64,000 nucleotides of DNA, taken from positions 1 through 64,000 of the forward strand of contig NZ_LQMW01000019.1 of assembly GCF_001541925.1 (NCBI RefSeq), read 5' to 3'. The notes beneath the pieces are model-generated. The model was not told the origin of the DNA and ran no database searches. It worked only from the letters and a program-made list of their open reading frames with translations. Of this stretch, positions 1,263-13,942 are shown piece by piece; the stretch's first letter is position 1; the number at the start of each line of letters is the position of its first letter. The translations under genes were made by a program, and so were the position numbers. The DNA is from Nitrosopumilus sp. Nsub. Lineage in GTDB: Archaea; Thermoproteota; Nitrososphaeria; Nitrososphaerales; Nitrosopumilaceae.

Positions 1263-1790
1263 TCAATTAACAAAAGAAACAGTTACAGATCCATCAGATT
1301 CTACAACATTACATTCACAGTTTAATGTAGATGAAATTACTGCAGTTAAAAATGAGGCAATGTAAATTGAACCTTTTTTGCCAAAATTGTGACGTATACT
1401 CATAGAGACTTTGTTATCAGATTGCTCAAGATCACATTGACCATACCCACAATGTTCACAATAAATTTTCATAAACATAGATACATTTTGTGAGGTAATT
1501 TCTTTCCATTTGAACAATATGAACTCCTTAGGTTCATTTGAACCTGCATCCAATGCCAAAAGTTTGAGTTCGTCTACATCTGTTTTATCTAAAAACATTT
1601 TGAATACTTTTTTACTCATTTTCATCACTCCAAATTTTTCCATATACGTATCCAAATCCAAATAATTTCCAAAAATTTGGTTAGCTAAAATATTGAGACT
1701 TATTTTTTGTTCTTTTGCAATCTCTCTTAATTTTTCATCAATTTTTTCATCTATTCTAAATGTAATTGTATTAGTATTTCTTTTACTCAT
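1263..1790 (-). CDS. Ribbon-helix-helix domain regulator with a Cys-containing C-terminal domain
   Basis: The N-terminus (about residues 7-45: TITFRIDEKIDEKLREIA, then ISLNILANQIF) has the strand-helix-helix pattern of a MetJ/Arc DNA-binding domain. The remaining ~125 residues form a compact domain with CEHCGYGQC and a later CEC, which may bind metal or act as a small-molecule sensor. The total of 175 aa is longer than a bare RHH protein, so a DNA-binding plus effector architecture is likely. The RHH call is from pattern; the ligand is unknown. Its promoter would lie in the 180 bp before the start. Confidence 0.7.
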   Translation of the reverse strand: MSKRNTNTITFRIDEKIDEKLREIAKEQKISLNILANQIFGNYLDLDTYMEKFGVMKMSKKVFKMFLDKTDVDELKLLALDAGSNEPKEFILFKWKEITSQNVSMFMKIYCEHCGYGQCDLEQSDNKVSMSIRHNFGKKGSIYIASFLTAVISSTLNCECNVVESDGSVTVSFVN

Positions 1791-1976: not shown

Positions 1977-3842
1977 TTAGCTATTTTCAATAGAGATAAT
2001 TCCATTAGTGACCAACCATTCAATTCCTTGAATGAAAGCATCATCATCAATTGTTCCATCAGCCCACCAGCCTGCGTTATTTTTAACCCAGGATGGAATT
2101 TTTTCTTGTGAGGAATTTATTGTTTGAGAAGAAACATTCAAAATATTATTTTCAATTAAATATTGAATTCCTTGAACAAAGGAATCATCATCTATAGTAC
2201 CATCAGCCCACCATCCAGCATTGTTTTTAATCCATGAAGGAATTACAGAATCACCTACAGAAATTACTCCAATCATCCATGGATGTAATTCACAATAATA
2301 AGGAAACAATCCCGCAGTATCAAATTTTTGTGAGAAATTATTGCCAGGTGCAATTATACCACTATCAAAATAATTAGATTTTCCTTCTGCAGGATTTCCA
2401 GAAGTAACTGTATGTGCAGCTGAATCAACATTCTTCCACAAAACTAGTTCACCTACAGATAATTTTTCGTCATAAGGCAGATAGCATGATTCTGTTAATT
2501 CACAACCTGGAACAGAAGAACCCAATGCAATATCAATAATCTTATCAGCAATTATTTCATTTTTAGGCTCAGTTACTTTAAATGAAAATTCGCCAGAAGT
2601 ATCAAAATTGTTTACATTTGAAATTCTCAAAATTACTGCACCAGTACTATCAAAAATTACAGGAACTGAATCTCTACCAGTAAAAGATTCAACTCCACTT
2701 AATGATTCAATTTGGTTTCCATTTAGAAAAATATCCAAATCATATGTAATTTGAGGAATTACAATATTGGTAATTGGATCTCTAAATTCTAAATTCAGAT
2801 TAATTTCATTGTTAGGATGAATTTTTCCTTCGGGAGTTAATGTCAAGTGGAATTTCCAGTCCTCCTGAGTAGACAAGACAATTACTTTATCTCCAGATTC
2901 TAATGACGCGTCATCTTTTTGAACATCACGAAGTTTTCCAGATTCAAGTCCAAAAATTATTTTATCGCGTGTATCAGATGGAATTTCATCATATAGCTTG
3001 ACCAATTTTTTTGTAGGGATTAAAAAATGCACAACAATTTCTTCATCACCGGATCTATCAATAGTGCCTAAAACAGGAATAGTGTTTACAGTCATTTTGA
3101 TTTCATGTTCATGGAATGCTTTCATTGATTTTGGAATATAATATTCAGCATGAACATAAGGGATTTTTTTAATAAAATCAACATCCCAATTAAACGGCAT
3201 ATCTGCAGTTAATTTTTGACTATTCTCATCATAATGAAATTCATCAATTTTGTCAAAATAGGTTGCAAACATCAAATCATATTTTTTATCTGAATTAATT
3301 TCAAATGGAATATACTCACCAATAGTTAATAGAGTTTCAAAAACAGGAGGTCTAGGAAGAGATTCAGACTCAATTGACAAAATCGTTACGTCAACCTGCA
3401 CTAATCCACCGTTCATAAACAAAGGAGCATCTATTGTAAGAGGTTTTTGAGCAGTTCCAATCCAAAAATCATTAGATGTTTTATCACCTGAAAAATCTAT
3501 TTGATTTTTTGGAATAATTTTTGCAATAAAGGATTCATTTGGACTGTATGCATTAAAAGATAAGATAGAGTCACCAGTTTTAGGATCAATAACATCTACA
3601 AAATATTCAATGTTAGAAACAATACTTTCCTTGTCATGGTTAATTGTTGAAATTTCAAATCCTATCTCAGATTCATTTCCATGTAAAACATCAGGAGTTG
3701 TTTGGACTTTCACCTTATAGAAATTGTCATTGACAAATTGAATGTCACTTTCAACAGAACCTAATCCATGAGCATATGCAGATTGAACTGTTCCAAAAAT
3801 TATAACTATAGAAAAAATCAACAAGAGGGTAATAGAATTCAT
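1977..3842 (-). CDS. Secreted blue-copper (plastocyanin-like) protein with two C-terminal NAGWWADG repeats
   Basis: Residues 1-24 are a signal peptide ending near AYA. A long beta-rich region follows, then a cupredoxin domain at about 440-535. Its likely type-1 copper ligands are His in AHTV, then Cys, His and Met in YYCELHPWM. The C-terminus holds two ~37-residue repeats, each starting IPSW(I/V)KNNAGWWADG and continuing IDDD.F.QGI..L. Such repeats and extracellular cupredoxins are typical of ammonia-oxidising archaea, whose electron transport depends on copper. The neighbouring gene encodes a related secreted protein. Whether this one carries electrons, stores copper or is structural cannot be read from sequence. 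Confidence 0.85.
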   Translation of the reverse strand: MNSITLLLIFSIVIIFGTVQSAYAHGLGSVESDIQFVNDNFYKVKVQTTPDVLHGNESEIGFEISTINHDKESIVSNIEYFVDVIDPKTGDSILSFNAYSPNESFIAKIIPKNQIDFSGDKTSNDFWIGTAQKPLTIDAPLFMNGGLVQVDVTILSIESESLPRPPVFETLLTIGEYIPFEINSDKKYDLMFATYFDKIDEFHYDENSQKLTADMPFNWDVDFIKKIPYVHAEYYIPKSMKAFHEHEIKMTVNTIPVLGTIDRSGDEEIVVHFLIPTKKLVKLYDEIPSDTRDKIIFGLESGKLRDVQKDDASLESGDKVIVLSTQEDWKFHLTLTPEGKIHPNNEINLNLEFRDPITNIVIPQITYDLDIFLNGNQIESLSGVESFTGRDSVPVIFDSTGAVILRISNVNNFDTSGEFSFKVTEPKNEIIADKIIDIALGSSVPGCELTESCYLPYDEKLSVGELVLWKNVDSAAHTVTSGNPAEGKSNYFDSGIIAPGNNFSQKFDTAGLFPYYCELHPWMIGVISVGDSVIPSWIKNNAGWWADGTIDDDSFVQGIQYLIENNILNVSSQTINSSQEKIPSWVKNNAGWWADGTIDDDAFIQGIEWLVTNGIISIENS

Positions 3843-6395: not shown

Positions 6396-6812
6396 TTATA
6401 GAGATTCTTTTGATTCAATTAATTGTAAAATTTTTTTAATTACTCTATCATGATCTATTCCAATATCAGTACCAACAATTAACAATTTATGGTTTTTTAA
6501 TGGAAAAGTAATTCTTTTAATTTTTTCATATTCTGTAAAAGAGTATTTACCATAACCAACAAACGGATACAGTAATTCCCGAGCATTCCAACGTAAAATT
6601 GTATTAATTAGCGATTTTGATATTTCTTCTATTGGAAGATATGATTTAATGCTGTCTCGCATCCCTCCTGCGATAAAATCTCCATTGTTATTATACACAA
6701 AAGCACCCCTAACTTGAGATTCTATTCCTAAAATTAATGAACAAAATTTTTCATAATTCATTTCTGAATTTGTATAGTTCAGAGTATTACTCATTCTAAT
6801 GCTGTGCTCCAT
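6396..6812 (-). CDS. Roadblock-like small sensor/scaffold protein
   Basis: 138 aa. The ILGIESQVRGAFVYNNNGDFIAGG segment followed by a helix pair resembles the roadblock/LC7 (profilin-like) fold. It is clearly paralogous to the product of 8657-9049: both carry Y(E/D)KIKRIT.PL and then an (L)L(I/F)V strand. Its start codon lies inside the end of a tiny membrane zinc-ribbon gene (6796-6969), so the two are translationally coupled. Roadblock proteins in prokaryotes often partner small GTPases or sensors, but no GTPase is in this window. Paralogy is certain; the fold call is an inference. Confidence 0.6.
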   Translation of the reverse strand: MEHSIRMSNTLNYTNSEMNYEKFCSLILGIESQVRGAFVYNNNGDFIAGGMRDSIKSYLPIEEISKSLINTILRWNARELLYPFVGYGKYSFTEYEKIKRITFPLKNHKLLIVGTDIGIDHDRVIKKILQLIESKESL

Positions 6813-6969
6813 TACATTTTATGCATTTTAATCCATTTATTTTGGAACCACAATGAATGCATTGCATGTTAAATTTTACATATTCATTTTTTTGAGTTTT
6901 TGAATATTTTATTGCCAAATAAATTATTAAAATCATTCCAATTCCAATTCCCAGCCATAAAAGAACCAT
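6796..6969 (-). CDS. Membrane-anchored zinc-knuckle microprotein (57 aa)
   Basis: An N-terminal transmembrane helix (VLLWLGIGIGMILIIYLAI) is followed by a short charged linker and a C-terminal pair of knuckles, CIHC and CIKC, eight residues apart. The stop TAG lies inside the start region of the roadblock-like gene, giving a 17-base overlap and suggesting a two-gene operon. One reading is a membrane anchor that presents a zinc knuckle to the roadblock-like protein in the cytoplasm; that is inference. Confidence 0.6.
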   Translation of the reverse strand: MVLLWLGIGIGMILIIYLAIKYSKTQKNEYVKFNMQCIHCGSKINGLKCIKCNGAQH

Positions 6970-7129
6970 TATTATTTTAAATATGAAACAATGAAATTTA
7001 ATGTTAAATGTAGAATTACGTTATATGTGTAAATTATATTTGCTATTAATTTAATAATTGTTAAGATATTTAAACAAATGTTAATAATTTATTTTTAAAA
7101 TTTAATTTCTATTTTCTCACATTATTTGT

Positions 7130-7276
7130 ATGAATGAAGATTATGCAGAATATACAAAATGCATTGAATGTAATACATCATTATTACTATGTGATTGTAT
7201 TTGTCCTAAATGTGGAAAAAGAGAAGGGTGTAGATGTGAACTTGTTCCAATCAAGTGGAGAGATTTGGGATATTAG
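7130..7276 (+). CDS. Eight-cysteine microprotein (48 aa), family member 1
   Basis: The sequence runs KCIECNTS then CDCICPKCGKREGCRC. The spacing CxxC followed by CxCxCxxCGxRxxCxC is shared with two other hidden genes in this window (9726-9881 and 42237-42377), so it is a real conserved family and not chance. Eight cysteines could hold two zinc ions. It starts at ATG 7130 and ends at TAG. No catalytic or membrane segment is present. Function unknown. Confidence 0.7.
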   Translation: MNEDYAEYTKCIECNTSLLLCDCICPKCGKREGCRCELVPIKWRDLGY

Positions 7277-7636
7277 GTGTACAATTTTTGTAATTTAAAA
7301 TCATAATTATTTTTGTACAATAGCACACATATTGAAATTAATACAAATTGAGATATAGGTTCCACAAAATTTATGTCCAGAATGTTTTTGTATGGCATAG
7401 GATTGAGTCCCACAATTTTATTATAATTTTAAATCATAAAATAATTACATATCAATCATTTGAAGAAAAAGAAATTCCACATATTGGTTCCTATGATTAA
7501 TCATATCTTCCAACACTGGATTGTATTTTAGATGATCAATACAATTTCAATTTTTAAATCTCAAAACAACCATCATTGAAAAACTAAAATTTGTTTAAAG
7601 CAAATATCAAAAATCAGTAGATTTAATCTTAAAACA
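7277..7636. other. 360-bp gap; one 8-bp hairpin
   Basis: No supported gene. A 49-codon TTG frame on the + strand looks random. ATTGTATT (7520-7527) pairs perfectly with AATACAAT (7538-7545) across a 10-nt loop. It lies ~90 bp past the stop of the minus-strand RAM gene and may be a 3' structure for it. A short stretch reading CPECFC near 7375 hints at a decayed cysteine microprotein, but it has no usable start. Confidence 0.35.
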
Positions 7637-7873
7637 TCATTTTGTAGATTGTTCAGGAATTGTATGAATAGTAATTGTATGTGTAACAAATCGGATTTTT
7701 CTAATCTCCTTTAATGACTCTTCAAATTCATCCATGTTTGCATAATTTAATTTTCCAATAAAATCATAAATCCCATACGTTCCACTTACTGCATCACAAA
7801 ATTTTTTGAGACTTGGAATTACTTGTAATTCATTTCCCATTTCACAATTTATCAAAACAAATGCAATTGCCAT
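7637..7873 (-). CDS. Stand-alone RAM (Lrp/AsnC effector) domain protein
   Basis: 78 aa, exactly one Lrp/AsnC ligand-binding domain with no helix-turn-helix. The opening strand AFVLINCEMGNE, the G(T)YGIYDFI strand and the final TITIHTI strand match the other RAM proteins at 9487, 12291 and 12531. RAM domains form beta-alpha-beta-beta-alpha-beta dimers that bind amino acids or similar effectors and assemble into larger rings. A version without a DNA-binding domain may modulate full-length Lrp proteins by hetero-oligomerising or act as a free sensor. Confidence 0.85.
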   Translation of the reverse strand: MAIAFVLINCEMGNELQVIPSLKKFCDAVSGTYGIYDFIGKLNYANMDEFEESLKEIRKIRFVTHTITIHTIPEQSTK

Positions 7874-8120
7874 ACTAAATATTGTATTTAATAGATTTAA
7901 AGATAACTAATTATTTATAAAATGATTGTTTGATATTAAATAAATTATCAGAAAATACGTTTGTAAAATTAGACCATTGTTTAACCTTTATTTTATTAAT
8001 AATAATTATTTTATACACAATAAATGTAATTAAATAATGATGAAAATCATATTTTAAATCTATTTTTGGCATTAACAGAAAAATAAATATCAAGTTAACA
8101 AGATATTTTTTGTCTTTCCA

Positions 8121-8216
8121 TTAATGTCGAGGGTCATAATGACAATCACAAATACAATTTATTTCACATTGAACTCGAACACAATCAATACACGGTTTTT
8201 GGTAATGCCAAAACAT
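8121..8216 (-). CDS. Cysteine-rich microprotein (31 aa)
   Basis: An ATG-initiated frame reading KPCIDCVRVQCEINCICDCHYD, with six cysteines in 17 residues. The CxxC followed by closely spaced CxC pairs resembles a shortened version of the eight-cysteine family found in this window. It is too short for a classical fold without bound metal. The gene sits alone between AT-rich spacers. Expression is not certain, but a run of six Cys is very unlikely in random AT-rich DNA. Confidence 0.5.
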   Translation of the reverse strand: MFWHYQKPCIDCVRVQCEINCICDCHYDPRH

Positions 8217-8374
8217 AATTTCTATTATCGTTATTAGTATATGAAATCAAGTAAATTATTTCTTAATAATTATCTGATTTTTTAGATATTTTTTGTACAT
8301 GTTTTTATTAATTTTATTTTAGATGATTTTAACAAATGTTTAAGAAAATATGACAAAAATTTCATTAATGATAA

Positions 8375-8485
8375 ATGAGTATAATAGTTATGAAATATAC
8401 TTGCCAAAAATGTGAATGTTCAATAATTGGTCATGCAGAAATTGTTTATGACATCATACATCATGAAAAAATTTGTGATCCATAA
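8375..8485 (+). CDS. Microprotein with a CxxCxC knuckle (31-36 aa)
   Basis: It reads KYTCQKCECSIIGHAEIVYDIIHHEKICDP. Two in-frame ATGs (8375 and 8390) are available. The CQKCEC knuckle, followed by two histidines and a last cysteine, could form one zinc site. The order resembles the 52-aa zinc ribbon at 6191 (both have the knuckle, then I-G-x-A/I-E/D and a Tyr-Asp). Low information content; function unknown. Confidence 0.42.
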   Translation: MSIIVMKYTCQKCECSIIGHAEIVYDIIHHEKICDP

Positions 8486-8656
8486 ATGGATTAATCATTT
8501 GCATGAATTAATTGATGTACCAACCTAATAATTAATAATTTTTAATATGTTTCAATTTATCTATTAAACATTTGTTCATAATTGTTTAATGATTTTAAAT
8601 AATTTTAAAATAGATTATGCATTAAAGTTATGTTGTTTTAATGGCAAGTATATCCA

Positions 8657-9049
8657 ATGTCTGCCACACAAATCATTCATGAAAATGAAGAAAAGTTGCT
8701 TAATATGATATTAGGTGAAATTCCTAGTTCTAGAATAGCAATTATTTGTGATCATGATGGAAATATTTTGTGGAATAGTGTTAGAGATAACACAACTAGC
8801 TTTCTAAGCATAGACGAAACCAAAGAATCTCTGAAAAGATCTATTGATTCTTGGGATGAACGTGACAAACTTTCAAACAAAATTGGAAATGGGAAATATG
8901 CAATTGTTGCATATGATAAAATCAAGAGAATTACCGTACCACTTCCAAATAATCATTTGTTGTTCGTAAGCTTGGAAGGTGAAGAATTTGGAAACATCAA
9001 AAATATAATGACTATAGTTGATTGGGTAAATACCAATATGGGACTATAA
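8657..9049 (+). CDS. Roadblock-like small protein, second copy
   Basis: 130 aa and paralogous to the gene at 6396-6812. It shares a helix and strand opening (NMILGEIPSSRIAIICDHDGNILW), the central SWDERDKL helix, YDKIKRITVPL and the strand HLLFVSLEG. The fold looks like roadblock/LC7. It has no transmembrane segment and no partner gene overlapping it, unlike the first copy. A homodimer or heterodimer with the other copy is plausible. Confidence 0.6.
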   Translation: MSATQIIHENEEKLLNMILGEIPSSRIAIICDHDGNILWNSVRDNTTSFLSIDETKESLKRSIDSWDERDKLSNKIGNGKYAIVAYDKIKRITVPLPNNHLLFVSLEGEEFGNIKNIMTIVDWVNTNMGL

Positions 9050-9141
9050 TCTTTTTTTTGACATATTGCAGACGTTAAAATTTAAAATCATTTGTTAAAA
9101 TAATTTCTCACATTATTTTCAGTACAAATAATTTTTTATAA

Positions 9142-9348
9142 TCATTTCATATCATCTAATAATTCAATTGAATCTAATTGTTCTTCTATTCGTTCGCAAA
9201 TTCCATGTTTTTTATATTCAATTAAAAAAGCCACATCTTGAATTATTTCACATTTTTTTGTACTATGTATTTTTAATTTTTTTAATGCTTTAAAATGATA
9301 TTCTTCAATTATTGCACCATGTTTTGGACATTGAATTAACCAGGACAT
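9142..9348 (-). CDS. Small hypothetical protein with Cys/His pairs (68 aa)
   Basis: Starts MSWLIQCPKHGAIIEEYH and later has KKCEII and KHGICERI. The spacing C-x2-H...C...H-x2-C could hold one zinc. The C-terminus is acidic. It is ATG-initiated and convergent with the roadblock-like gene upstream. I recognise no family; the Cys/His pattern fits the zinc-microprotein theme of the region. Confidence 0.5.
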   Translation of the reverse strand: MSWLIQCPKHGAIIEEYHFKALKKLKIHSTKKCEIIQDVAFLIEYKKHGICERIEEQLDSIELLDDMK

Positions 9349-9486
9349 TTATTTTAATTAGATAAAAATAAATATAAAGAAATAGTTTCAATATATTAAA
9401 ATATATTCAGTATAATCAAACATTATTTAATATATTTTTAATTATAATAACACTTTATTAAAATATAATTAGTTTAATCAATTATT

Positions 9487-9726
9487 ATGAAAACAGCATA
9501 TGTGTTAATCAATTGTAAATTAGGATCAGAAGAAGATATTTTATCAGTATTACGTAGTATGAAAACTGTTAAAGAAGCTCATGGAACTTTTGGCGCATAT
9601 GATATAATTGCAGAAGTAATTGCAGAAACATCAGAAACACTTCGTGAAGAGATAACTTGGAAAATTCGTAAACTTGTGGATATCAGAGCTACTTTAACAC
9701 TAGTTGGCATAGAGGGACAAAGTTAA
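9487..9726 (+). CDS. Stand-alone RAM (Lrp/AsnC effector) domain protein
   Basis: 79 aa, one complete RAM domain: TAYVLINCKLGSEEDIL (strand and helix), EAHGTFGAYDIIAEV (the conserved G-x-(F/Y)D strand) and ATLTLVGIE (last strand). No DNA-binding part. It is closest to the protein at 12291, with the same TAYVLINC, HGTFGAYDI and R(A/S)TLTL blocks. Its TAA stop shares an A with the ATG of the next gene, an eight-cysteine microprotein, so the two form an operon. Confidence 0.88.
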   Translation: MKTAYVLINCKLGSEEDILSVLRSMKTVKEAHGTFGAYDIIAEVIAETSETLREEITWKIRKLVDIRATLTLVGIEGQS

Positions 9727-9881
9727 TGATTAAACAAAAAGTTATTTTAAAAGAAGATATTCAATACACAGATTGTCAACAATGTCAAAATCCTTTATTG
9801 CATTGTCATTGTAAATGCATGTTTTGTGGAAAAAGAGATGAATGTGAATGTGCATTATTTGATGCTGCAACTGGCGGTTAA
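9726..9881 (+). CDS. Eight-cysteine microprotein (51 aa), family member 2, coupled to a RAM gene
   Basis: It reads TDCQQCQNP then CHCKCMFCGKRDECEC and ends CALFDAATGG. That C-terminal tail is identical to the tail of the hidden gene at 42237-42377, 32 kb away, and the cysteine spacing matches the gene at 7130. The ATG overlaps the RAM gene stop by one base (TAATG), so the pair is almost certainly co-translated, which is the best clue that this family works with an effector-sensing RAM protein. Probably binds two zinc ions. Confidence 0.75.
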   Translation: MIKQKVILKEDIQYTDCQQCQNPLLHCHCKCMFCGKRDECECALFDAATGG

Positions 9882-10000
9882 TTTCAATGATTTCTAAATA
9901 AAAAATTACTTTTAAAACATATTTAGTTTTTTTTCAATTTTTGGATAAATTTTAAGAATTATTTTAATAAAAATAAAACATAGAATTGTTTTAAGTCAGT

Positions 10001-10078
10001 ATGGATAAAAATAAAGAAAAATACAAAGAAAAACTTCAACAAAAAAGTGATGCTGCAGAAATATTTGAATTCACATAA
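10001..10078 (+). CDS. Possible 25-aa charged microprotein
   Basis: ATG-initiated frame of Lys/Glu/Gln-rich sequence (DKNKEKYKEKLQQKSDAAEIFEF), which would be a single amphipathic helix. No Cys motif, no neighbour in the same operon. Such composition also arises easily in A-rich DNA, so the call is weak. Confidence 0.25.
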   Translation: MDKNKEKYKEKLQQKSDAAEIFEFT

Positions 10079-10163
10079 TTTTCTTTCTGCATTTAATTTT
10101 TACAAATTCATTTCTTAGAATTTTATTATTTTAAATAAAAATGCAGAACTTGATTTATACACA

Positions 10164-10340
10164 TTATTTTAGAAAATTGTATTCAAGTTCTTCTTTGACA
10201 AACACATATGGTTCGGAAATGATTGATTTTAGATCTTTGGCACAAACATTTGCCTTGACAAACTTGTTAGATTGTGGCAAATACAGTCCAACCATTTCCT
10301 TATCACATGTATTGCAGCTACAATCAAAGGTATTTTTCAT
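10164..10340 (-). CDS. Cysteine-knuckle microprotein (58 aa)
   Basis: ATG-initiated frame beginning MKNTFDCSCNTCDKEMVGLY, so a CxCxxC knuckle followed by a mixed alpha/beta sequence (KANVCAKDLKSIISEPYVFVKEELEYNFL) with one more Cys. This is better coding sequence than the 73-codon frame antisense to it, which is its shadow. The first in-frame stop upstream leaves this ATG as the natural start. One zinc site is likely; no family is recognised. Confidence 0.55.
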   Translation of the reverse strand: MKNTFDCSCNTCDKEMVGLYLPQSNKFVKANVCAKDLKSIISEPYVFVKEELEYNFLK

Positions 10341-10465
10341 CGTAAAAGATACAGTGATTTAGTATTTTAGTAATATGTTATTCATTAAACACCGTAATAT
10401 TAAAGAAAAACCATTTATGTTTTGAGGGAATCTTTTACAAGTCGCAAATAAAACATATAGATTCT

Positions 10466-10514
10466 TTGACTTCCACTGGGATTAGTAAAAAAATCCTATC
10501 AGTATAGAAGTCAA
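10466..10514. other. 17-bp interrupted hairpin
   Basis: Three helices stack: TTGACTTC (10466-10473) with GAAGTCAA (10507-10514), ACTG (10475-10478) with CAGT (10500-10503), and GGATT (10479-10483) with AATCC (10492-10496), around an 8-nt A-rich loop. The only interruptions are a 1-nt bulge and two 3-nt bulges. It lies 126 bp upstream of the minus-strand microprotein start at 10340. It may be a small RNA or a leader structure; the strand is unknown. Confidence 0.45.
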
Positions 10515-10586
10515 TTGTATGTTTGAGAAAATTAGAAACATAAGATTTCACATTATTCAAATATCAAAATTGATTCCAGATGAATT

Positions 10587-10676
10587 TTAGATTAATGGGA
10601 TTCCAGATAGCATAAAGATTTCAATTGCTGCAAATCCAATACACCCCAAAATTATCAAAAGGAGATTTCTATCCAT
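10587..10676 (-). CDS. Possible 29-aa single-helix membrane microprotein
   Basis: ATG frame MDRNLLLIILGCIGFAAIE followed by IFMLSGIPLI. It is essentially one transmembrane helix with a charged N-terminal cap. It lies 36 bp downstream of, and on the same strand as, the TGA-interrupted membrane microprotein gene (10712-10855), so it could share its transcript. Short hydrophobic frames occur by chance; confidence is limited. Confidence 0.35.
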   Translation of the reverse strand: MDRNLLLIILGCIGFAAIEIFMLSGIPLI

Positions 10677-10711
10677 AAAAATAATTTTGTTTTGAGAGTA
10701 TTGAATATTTC

Positions 10712-10855
10712 TCATCTATTCAAAATTACGTGATAACATTTGACTTTATGTAATGAACTACAGTTAAGATAGATTCCAAAAATAATCAAGGCAGACACCA
10801 CCACTCAAATTAGAAATTTCCATCTAAATTTGATTTGTTTAAATTTATTCCACAT
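10712..10855 (-). pseudogene. Membrane microprotein gene interrupted by an in-frame TGA (paralogue of 13787-13942)
   Basis: The frame from ATG 10855 reads MWNKFKQIKFRWKFLI, then TGA (10805-10807), then VVVSALIIFGIYLNCSSL and HKVKCYHVILNR to a TGA at 10712-10714. The intact gene at 13787-13942 reads FKWKFLIW then VILVGLVFVGIYLDCGSL and LKIECHQVILTR. The two align end to end without gaps from KF(R/K)WKFLI onward, and the interrupting TGA sits exactly where the intact copy has TGG (Trp). This is a one-base nonsense change in an otherwise preserved gene, TGA read-through, or a sequencing error. Confidence 0.7.
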
Positions 10856-11063
10856 GATTTGACATGATATAATCAAGACATAATGAAAATAAACAGTATT
10901 TTTTATCTACACAATAAAAAATTTCATTATTTTAATACTTATAATTAATTATTAATAAGAATATTAAATTTTTTTTAAAATAATTACATAAAAATTTTAA
11001 ATAGTTGAGTATCTTATAGAATAATACTTTGTTAGTTACGAAATCTGACAAATAACTTGCGTA

Positions 11064-11147
11064 GCCCCGCAGAACGAAAAAGGTACTCAGGCGTTTAGAC
11101 GCTTGACCATAAGAGGAAATCTCTAATGGTTCTGCAATGAAGTGGGC
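11064..11147 (+). ncRNA. Candidate structured RNA A (three-way junction)
   Basis: Hand folding gives an outer GCCC/GGGC pair (11064-11067 with 11144-11147) and P1 GCAGA/TCTGC (11069-11073 with 11131-11135). P2 is CAGGCGT/ACGCTTG around a TTAG loop (11088-11105). P3 is ACCAT/ATGGT plus AGAG/CTCT (11106-11130). P2, P3 and the 3' strand of P1 abut without unpaired bases, a tidy three-way junction. It is GC-rich in AT-rich surroundings and has no open frame. A possible TATA-like element, ATCTTATAG (about 11011-11019), would start transcription near 11040. Strand assumed +. It resembles no RNA family I recognise. Confidence 0.55.
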
Positions 11148-11233
11148 TTCGCCATCTTAATTTCTCTAATGTAATCTTTATTTTACAAAATAAATTATCA
11201 AATCTTTAATACTATTTTTCACGCAACCATAGC

Positions 11234-11437
11234 ATGGCACAAAATTGTTTTGAATGTAAAAACAAAATCGATGAACATTCTGAAGAGCAATTAAAAAATT
11301 GTATCTCAAAAATTTCAGATTCTCTAGAGTCTGTTCAAAAAGAGCAAACCAACCTCAGAGAGGTTTCAGACAAAGAGGCAATGGACCAATTTGTCAATAC
11401 CAAAATTGGTGAGCCTAGCAGAATGGGTTCAAAATAA
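11234..11437 (+). CDS. Small hypothetical protein with one CxxC (67 aa)
   Basis: Begins MAQNCFECKNKIDEH, then a highly charged helical body (EEQLKNCISKISDSLESVQKEQTNLREVSDKEAMDQF) that could form a short coiled coil. The N-terminal CFEC knuckle could hold a zinc shared between two chains. It lies between structured RNA candidates A and B. The hairpin at 11459-11486 follows 21 bases after the stop. Confidence 0.55.
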   Translation: MAQNCFECKNKIDEHSEEQLKNCISKISDSLESVQKEQTNLREVSDKEAMDQFVNTKIGEPSRMGSK

Positions 11438-11458
11438 TTCTGTTACAAAAAGAATTTT

Positions 11459-11486
11459 GTGACAAAATTTTAATTTTTTTTGTCAC
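11459..11486. terminator. Hairpin after the CxxC gene, terminator-like
   Basis: GTGACAAAA (11459-11467) pairs perfectly with TTTTGTCAC (11478-11486); the loop and flank are T-rich. It lies 21 bases after the stop of the + strand gene ending at 11437. It also overlaps the 3' end of a minus-strand microprotein frame, so it could end transcripts from both directions. Archaeal termination depends mainly on T tracts, which are present in the loop. Confidence 0.4.
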
Positions 11487-11565
11487 TATCGGAATAATTA
11501 TCTGATATGTATTTACAAAACACACCATCTAACAATTTGAAAAATGGACATTTTCCTTCATACAT
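11470..11565 (-). CDS. Possible 31-aa microprotein with two cysteines
   Basis: ATG frame beginning MYEGKCPFFKLLDGVFCKYIS, then an acidic and basic tail. Cysteines flank an amphipathic segment (C-x10-C). It resembles no other protein here. Coding potential is modest, and the 3' end runs into the hairpin at 11459-11486. Confidence 0.35.
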   Translation of the reverse strand: MYEGKCPFFKLLDGVFCKYISDNYSDSDKKN

Positions 11566-11706
11566 GTAATAATTATGCAATACTCATTAAAAAATAATTT
11601 AAAAGTAAATTGAAATTATTTCATAAAAATAAAGTGTTTTTTCAAAAATTTGTGTGATTACTTAATTACTAGTTTCCCCATAACAAAATAGCATTTCCAA
11701 CCTTCG

Positions 11707-11746
11707 GAATTACAAGTCGCCTTGCTTCCGTTTTGACTTGTAATTC
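11707..11746. other. Perfect 12-bp hairpin
   Basis: GAATTACAAGTC (11707-11718) and GACTTGTAATTC (11735-11746) are exact reverse complements separated by 16 nt (GCCTTGCTTCCGTTTT). A T-rich run follows. It lies in a gene-free 315-bp stretch between the small CDS and RNA candidate B. It could be a small hairpin RNA, a terminator or an operator; nothing distinguishes these by eye. Confidence 0.5.
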
Positions 11747-11876
11747 TTTTCACATTATCAAATTACATAATTGTTTTAATTTTAAAAATTGTTTTAACAA
11801 TTTTGAATGTCTAAAAAAATTCTTTTTTTTAAAGATTACTGATCATAATTAAATATCACATTATCATAATAATAGT

Positions 11877-11976
11877 AACAAGAAACCGCCATGTCTGCGT
11901 AGTAGAGTGGTGAGTAAGGAAAACAATTCATGTTAGGATTCGTTTACGTCTCCAATGTTTTCCAGTTTTTCTTGTT
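11877..11976 (+). ncRNA. Candidate structured RNA B (three-way junction)
   Basis: P1 pairs AACAAGAAA (11877-11885) with TTTCTTGTT (11968-11976), nine perfect pairs. Inside, P2 pairs CGCCA (11887-11891) with TGGTG (11908-11912, one G-U), and P3 pairs GGAAAACA (11918-11925) with TGTTTTCC (11956-11963), eight perfect pairs. The element has no long frame. A TATA-like ATTAAATATC at about 11848-11857 would place the start close to 11877, supporting the + strand. No sequence similarity to candidate A is obvious, only the shape. Confidence 0.55.
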
Positions 11977-12007
11977 GTTTTTAATTTTAGGAAAAAAGAT
12001 CATTTTT

Positions 12008-12017
12008 TTATAAAATG
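12008..12017 (+). promoter_or_regulatory. TATA box of RNA candidate C
   Basis: TTTATAAAAT lies 28 bp upstream of the 5' strand of the outer helix at 12036, the normal archaeal TATA-to-start spacing. This supports a transcript beginning right at the structured element on the + strand. Confidence 0.45.
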
Positions 12018-12035
12018 TTTGTATATAGTAATTAG

Positions 12036-12133
12036 AAGCCAACACAATATCCCATTGTCAAAATAACTCCCCGTCGTGTTACTGGCATAAGCCTACCTGC
12101 TATGCTACGTAAAGGATGTGAAACAGTTGGCTT
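12036..12133 (+). ncRNA. Candidate structured RNA C (three-way junction)
   Basis: P1 pairs AAGCCAAC (12036-12043) with GTTGGCTT (12126-12133), eight perfect pairs. P2 is ACAAT/ATTGT directly after it (12044-12058, 5-nt loop). P3 is a longer arm, TTAC then GGCATA against TATGCT then GTAA (roughly 12079-12112) with short bulges. A T-rich run (TTTAATTTTTCTAT) follows, suitable for termination, and a TATA box precedes. It is the third such element in 1.1 kb and lies just upstream of two RAM genes, so a leader role is an alternative to a free RNA. Confidence 0.55.
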
Positions 12134-12290
12134 TAATTTTTCTATAAAATTTACTATGAAAAAAGAGATAATTTATTGAAAAAATATTTAGTTTAATAAT
12201 ATTTCATGATTTAATTTTCAAGTTATTTTAGATAATTCTTTAAATATGCTAAGTACAAAACCAATATATGAAAATTGGAGTTTTACAAAA

Positions 12291-12530
12291 ATGACTACAG
12301 CATATGTTTTGATTAACTGTGATTTAGGTTCAGAAGAAATGGTGATTTCGCAATTAAAGTCATTTGATGAAGTTGTCGAAGTTCATGGTACATTTGGAGC
12401 ATATGATATCTTAGCTAAAGTACAAGCAGAACAAATTGAAAAGGTTCGTGAAACAATTACCTGGAAGATTAGAAAGATAGAAAAAATTCGTTCTACATTA
12501 ACACTGATGGGAATTAAAGGTCAAGAATAA
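12291..12530 (+). CDS. Stand-alone RAM (Lrp/AsnC effector) domain protein
   Basis: 79 aa from ATG 12291, chosen because MTTAYVLINCDLGSEEM aligns with the start of its paralogue at 9487; an upstream ATG at 12246 would add 15 residues absent from the family. GGAG precedes by 10 bases. The conserved HGTFGAYDILAKV and RSTLTLMGI strands are present and there is no DNA-binding domain. The next gene begins on the base after the stop, so the two are co-transcribed and probably make interacting subunits. Confidence 0.88.
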   Translation: MTTAYVLINCDLGSEEMVISQLKSFDEVVEVHGTFGAYDILAKVQAEQIEKVRETITWKIRKIEKIRSTLTLMGIKGQE

Positions 12531-13055
12531 ATGGCAAAAGCATATGTTTTAATGAATTGCGATATGGGAAATGAAAAAAAGATCATTTCAAAATTAAATG
12601 CAATAAATGGAGTTACAGAGACACACGGTACATTTGGTTTGTATGACATATTTGCTAAAGTTGAAGCAGATGATGAAGAAGAAATTCAAAAGATAGTTAC
12701 AGGTTCAATTCGCCAAATGCCAGAAATTCATTCCACCATGACTTTAACTCGTTCTGAATGCGAAGATTTGTTTCCATCAGTAGAAAAAAAAGATTTCAAA
12801 TCTGAGGAAAATTCTTCACAAGCATATGTGGTAATCCATACTGACAAAGAAGAAGAATACGAAGTGTTAAAAAATTTGAGTCATATTGCACAAGTTAGAG
12901 AGGCAGATGTAGTCTTTGGATTTTACGATATTTTATGTAAAATTGAAACAAATGATTACGAGTCTTTAGAAAAAATAATTACAAAATCAATTAGAGCACT
13001 ACCTCACATCAAAACCAGTATGACTCTAAATGTAATTGCTGAACAAGAGGAATAA
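12531..13055 (+). CDS. Tandem double RAM-domain protein
   Basis: 174 aa made of two RAM domains in a row. The first (about 1-78) has AYVLMNCDMGNE, HGTFGLYDIFAKV and HSTMTLTR; the second (about 92-170) has AYVVIHTDKEEEYE, DVVFGFYDILCKI and KTSMTLNV. A ~13-residue charged linker joins them. A covalent dimer of the fold that normally dimerises is unusual and implies a fixed asymmetric pair of effector sites. It begins directly after the single-domain gene. Confidence 0.85.
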   Translation: MAKAYVLMNCDMGNEKKIISKLNAINGVTETHGTFGLYDIFAKVEADDEEEIQKIVTGSIRQMPEIHSTMTLTRSECEDLFPSVEKKDFKSEENSSQAYVVIHTDKEEEYEVLKNLSHIAQVREADVVFGFYDILCKIETNDYESLEKIITKSIRALPHIKTSMTLNVIAEQEE

Positions 13056-13786: not shown

Positions 13787-13942
13787 ATGATGAGAACAAT
13801 ATTTAAAAAATTTAGAAATTTGAAATTCAAGTGGAAGTTTTTAATTTGGGTAATTTTAGTTGGTTTAGTTTTTGTTGGAATTTATTTGGATTGTGGTTCT
13901 TTACTAAAAATTGAATGTCATCAGGTCATTTTAACCAGATAA
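13787..13942 (+). CDS. Small single-pass membrane protein (51 aa)
   Basis: A basic N-terminus (FKKFRNLKFKWK) leads into one transmembrane helix (FLIWVILVGLVFVGIYL), then a short tail DCGSLLKIECHQVILTR with two cysteines, probably outside the membrane by the positive-inside rule. A second copy on the minus strand at 10712-10855 has the same layout but carries TGA in place of the Trp at the start of the helix. Two ATGs are adjacent; I use the first. Confidence 0.6.
   Translation: MMRTIFKKFRNLKFKWKFLIWVILVGLVFVGIYLDCGSLLKIECHQVILTR

Follow-up and report, generated by a model that had tools for sequence, protein, structure and literature searches.

The locus considered here raises the question of why a small membrane-protein gene of Nitrosopumilus sp. 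Nsub carries an in-frame TGA codon exactly where an intact paralogue nearby has the tryptophan codon TGG. The gene lies in the 64,000-nucleotide stretch of DNA that was analysed (the window). The original prediction left three options open: a recent nonsense mutation, read-through of the stop, or an error in the assembly. The features concerned, members of a family here called gene A, are as follows.

10712-10855, minus strand: broken gene A copy (membrane microprotein), 47 codons plus stop, with an in-frame TGA at codon 17
10805-10807, minus strand: premature stop TGA, codon 17 of the gene A copy; TGG in 10/13 codon-alignment comparators
13787-13942, plus strand: intact gene A paralogue, with TGG at the site of the stop
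10718-10765, minus strand: worn C-terminal motif, NCSSLHKVKCYHVILN vs. DCGSLLKVECHQVILN in the sister copy L029

Translation of positions 10855-10712 gives MWNKFKQIKFRWKFLI, a stop, and then VVVSALIIFGIYLNCSSLHKVKCYHVILNR followed by the terminal stop; the product of 13787-13942 is MMRTIFKKFRNLKFKWKFLIWVILVGLVFVGIYLDCGSLLKIECHQVILTR. When the two are aligned by BLASTP with an X at the stop, 24/47 residues are identical and 36/47 positive, with no gaps over all 47 residues and a pair E-value of 5e-18. The alignment is thus gapless as predicted, but it begins at the first residue and not at KFRWKFLI. Codon 17 (10807-10805) is indeed TGA vs. TGG in the paralogue. Across the whole 1.38-Mb genome (26 contigs), the paralogue matches three places at E below 1e-12: 13787-13939, the broken copy, which contains one TGA (E 2.9e-13), and a third, intact copy on contig C3. 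The match of 10712-10855 to the paralogue is far beyond chance, and two intact copies, 13787-13942 and that on C3, are left in the genome.

When profiles were run against 250 genomes of the taxonomic family, 19 had gene A members, nearly all of them Nitrosopumilus and several of them Nitrosopumilus MAGs, with one to six matches per positive genome. The consensus runs from a basic N-terminus through the motif FKWKFLIW and a hydrophobic helix to a tail of the form CGSxLKx[DE]CHxVIL. In the first set of 13 members, Phe11, Cys33, Gly34, Lys38, Cys41, His42 and Leu46 do not vary (L029 numbering); a later member, L058, has Glu in place of the Gly, which is near-invariant. Three members, L052, L059 and L061, have a short N-terminus. 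No credible match to gene A was found in Pfam, PHROGs or PDB. A viral origin was considered and rejected, as viral contigs and phage records yielded no relative. Gene A constitutes an accessory family within the genus that is apparently undescribed and uncharacterised. Its anatomy (a basic N-terminus, one helix and a short tail that carries two Cys and one His) would suit a small membrane-complex subunit or a metal or redox accessory subunit, a guess offered with low confidence.

The codon at the site of the stop was compared in 13 relatives, drawn from genome collections with one genome per species. TGG is present in L029, the 13787 and C3 copies, L030-L035 and L037; the distant members have TTT (L036 and L038) or GGG (L039). 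None of the 13 has a stop there, TGA included, and a search of viral contigs with a DNA pattern permitting either TGA or TGG at the site found nothing. The proposed comparison of this codon among related genomes gave TGG in all close relatives. It had also been proposed that the prediction would fall if related strains had homologues with no open frame on the 3' side of the TGA; this test cannot separate the three options because the homologues are plain intact genes with TGG.

The paralogue at 13787-13942 is homologous, as predicted, but it is not the best comparator. The closest relative of the broken copy is L029, in Nitrosopumilus sp. SI036_bin4 (contig JABGZU010000016.1). The DNA match between L029 and the broken copy covers 229 bases and extends about 80 bases beyond the stop, whereas the match between L029 and the 13787 gene stops where the gene stops. 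The extra matched stretch contains a second tiny ORF, gene B, whose members are listed below.

10587-10676, minus strand: gene B, a tiny membrane ORF (MDRNLLLIILGCIGFAAIEIFMLSGIPLI), intact, 3' of the broken gene A
L029, about 2421-2519, plus strand: gene B relative (MNKKLIVIVWSCIGFGVLEALLITGNLQIPKF), similarly placed after the intact L029 gene A
L110 (genome G056), about 1503-1589, plus strand: gene B relative (MDRNLLLVILGSIGALSLEIFLLVLCCI), standing alone there

Gene B products are 28-32 amino acids long and share the pattern MDRNLLLxILGxIGxxxxEIFxL; a further weak DNA match to gene B lies at G000:C25:759-824. Since the match of the broken copy and L029 runs on over gene B, genes A and B seem to have been inherited as a pair. 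Elsewhere on the 6.3-kb L029 contig there is no DNA match with the window. In an unconstrained gene tree the 13787 copy is paired with L029 (60% support), and the broken copy and L029 are not tightly grouped; L029 is treated here as the sister of the broken copy because the 3' flank is common to both. In the surroundings of the intact gene A of L029 (L029 2042-2878 and 2939-6085), this gene overlaps, through the sequence ATGA, the end of a 66-amino-acid membrane ORF. Near it are a multicopper oxidase and a pair of multi-pass membrane proteins; from the appearance of their sequences, the latter two are possibly metal transporters. This neighbourhood may hint at a metal-related role of gene A.

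Comparison with L029 reveals that the stop is not the only damage. In the last 16 codons, the amino acid is changed at 6/16 positions of the broken copy (D>N, G>S, L>H, E>K, H>Y and Q>H) vs. 0/16 on the L029 lineage (p about 0.009 in a one-sided exact test calculated by hand). Over the whole gene, parsimony polarised against outgroups assigns 21 base changes to the broken-copy lineage, 13 of them non-synonymous including the stop, and 12 to the L029 lineage, of which 6 are non-synonymous and fall among hydrophobic or small residues. In a leave-one-out comparison the invariant His (His40 of the core) is changed to Tyr in the broken copy alone; the near-invariant Gly (Gly32) has become Ser, and Leu35, kept in near relatives, is also changed. 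The description of both halves as conserved was therefore too strong, as residues that vary little or not at all in the family are gone from the C-terminal motif. With the stop masked, the broken copy scores 58.9 bits against the leave-one-out profile, the lowest of the full-length members, vs. 76.5-96.6 for the intact ones; one N-terminally short member scores 61.5 bits. Both the motif changes and the profile score indicate that constraint is relaxed beyond the stop itself.

The branch as a whole nevertheless does not look neutral. In a branch codon model the log likelihood for the whole branch is -777.6 with omega free, -778.2 with omega shared and -781.4 with omega fixed at 1, so that neutrality is worse by 3.8 units, although the omega estimates are rough and the test weak because synonymous distances are saturated. 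After the stop the preference for constraint is less strong (-565.1 free vs. -567.3 at omega 1). A neutral omega across a branch is expected of old pseudogenes only and is no strict requirement. The broken copy also keeps its frame without insertions or deletions across the 47 codons. The simplest reading of these sequences is that the copy was constrained for the greater part of its time as a separate lineage and was probably lost late; the whole-branch constraint fits such a recent loss and is also compatible with residual function.

Decoding of the UGA was assessed from the tRNA complement. The survey covered 43 tRNA matches in the genome and found a single tRNA-Trp, with anticodon CCA (ARAGORN). 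No UCA anticodon is present among the readable tRNA-like matches of the 43, as determined by ARAGORN and by inspection. Five matches that ARAGORN had missed were assigned by inspection of their alignments and sequences: Tyr GTA, Leu CAA, Ser GGA, Arg CCT, and a split gene for which CAT is the likeliest anticodon. No tRNA-Sec match in the genome exceeded the cut-off; selenocysteine was rejected, as the four weak matches below it fall on ordinary tRNAs (Gly, Ser, Ser and Cys). Rfam searches of the window returned two tRNAs and nothing else. TGA terminates 10 of the 40 ORFs of at least 180 amino acids in the window and is thus a normal stop. The tRNA set gives no support for UGA decoding, and the original warning against assuming that TGA encodes Trp was well placed.

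Taken together, the evidence selects among the three options, and 10712-10855 (minus strand) is very probably a relatively recent nonsense pseudogene of this family of small single-pass membrane proteins. A base error of the assembly, behind which the codon would really be TGG and the gene intact, is unlikely: TGA is one transition away from the codon of the relatives, but an isolated error would sit in an otherwise normal gene, and this copy is separately worn at Gly32, Leu35 and His40 and has the lowest full-length score even with the stop masked. The gene could instead have been split, with translation restarting at one of the GTG codons directly after the stop (TGA GTG GTG GTG) and yielding a helix-plus-tail protein without the basic N-terminus. 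Translational coupling through termination-reinitiation is described in archaea (PMC6728339), and some family members do have a shorter N-terminus. Such a split is nevertheless very unlikely, since conserved residues were lost from the very tail that would have to be retained, and L052, L059 and L061 still carry an N-terminal MKIxFKIQ or similar ahead of the helix.

Programmed or leaky read-through of the UGA, or its reading as Trp or selenocysteine, would agree with a frame that is open on either side of the stop and with the constraint over most of the branch, but it is highly improbable. No relative has TGA at the site, the only tRNA-Trp has a CCA anticodon, no tRNA-Sec match exceeds the cut-off, TGA regularly serves as a stop, and the relatives have Trp and not Cys at the site. 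Archaeal read-through has been demonstrated for selenocysteine and pyrrolysine only (PMC8211752). A literature search for Nitrosopumilus and stop-codon read-through found nothing. Equally improbable is a useful read-through by a near-cognate tRNA, by which the worn copy would yield a low-level variant membrane microprotein; if true, it would be the first UGA read-through of this type in ammonia-oxidising archaea, and we know of no earlier UGA recoding of such a kind in the phylum.

In the case of a nonsense pseudogene, the change of TGG to TGA affects the Trp with which the membrane helix begins; it would leave a truncated product of 16 residues that lacks the helix, and the broken copy probably gives no functional product. 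With two intact copies still in the genome, and in a family that is accessory in the genus, its loss would be tolerated; redundancy is thus the probable reason. The locus resembles nonsense pseudogenes of multi-copy prokaryotic genes in its in-frame homology to intact copies, its single premature stop, its further changes at conserved sites and the presence of intact paralogues in the same genome. Unlike typical ones, it has as yet no frameshift or deletion, and the gene is very short. With archaeal stop-codon recoding (selenocysteine at UGA, pyrrolysine at UAG; PMC8211752) it shares a frame that is open on both sides of the stop, but no dedicated tRNA was found, the stop is not conserved in relatives and there is no Cys/Sec exchange.

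Other members of the family are also broken. In genome G035, one gene A copy (L060) has a TGA at a different codon, another (L024) has lost its start (ATG to ATA) and has a one-base deletion that shifts the frame, and a more distant match (L065) has a TAA. These lesions are unrelated to one another, and therefore breakage is a habit of the gene A family; the locus is best explained as a recent nonsense pseudogene in a family whose copies are often lost. G035 (L024, L060, L063 and L065) is a single contig of 1.9 Mb, in which most family copies look broken or strongly diverged. The pseudogene itself is of little weight. It illustrates turnover in an accessory and apparently undescribed Nitrosopumilus family of tiny membrane proteins, and a TGA opposite Trp in such genomes is to be read as gene decay.

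Positions 6396-13055 of the window hold a cluster of locally duplicated small genes. The cluster includes stand-alone Lrp/AsnC ligand-binding domains (9487-9726, 12246-12530 and 12531-13055), two Cys-rich small proteins (7130-7276 and 9726-9881) and two similar proteins of 130-138 amino acids (6396-6812 and 8657-9049). At L033, a gene A copy adjoins DNA matching the 12092-13048 region of the window.
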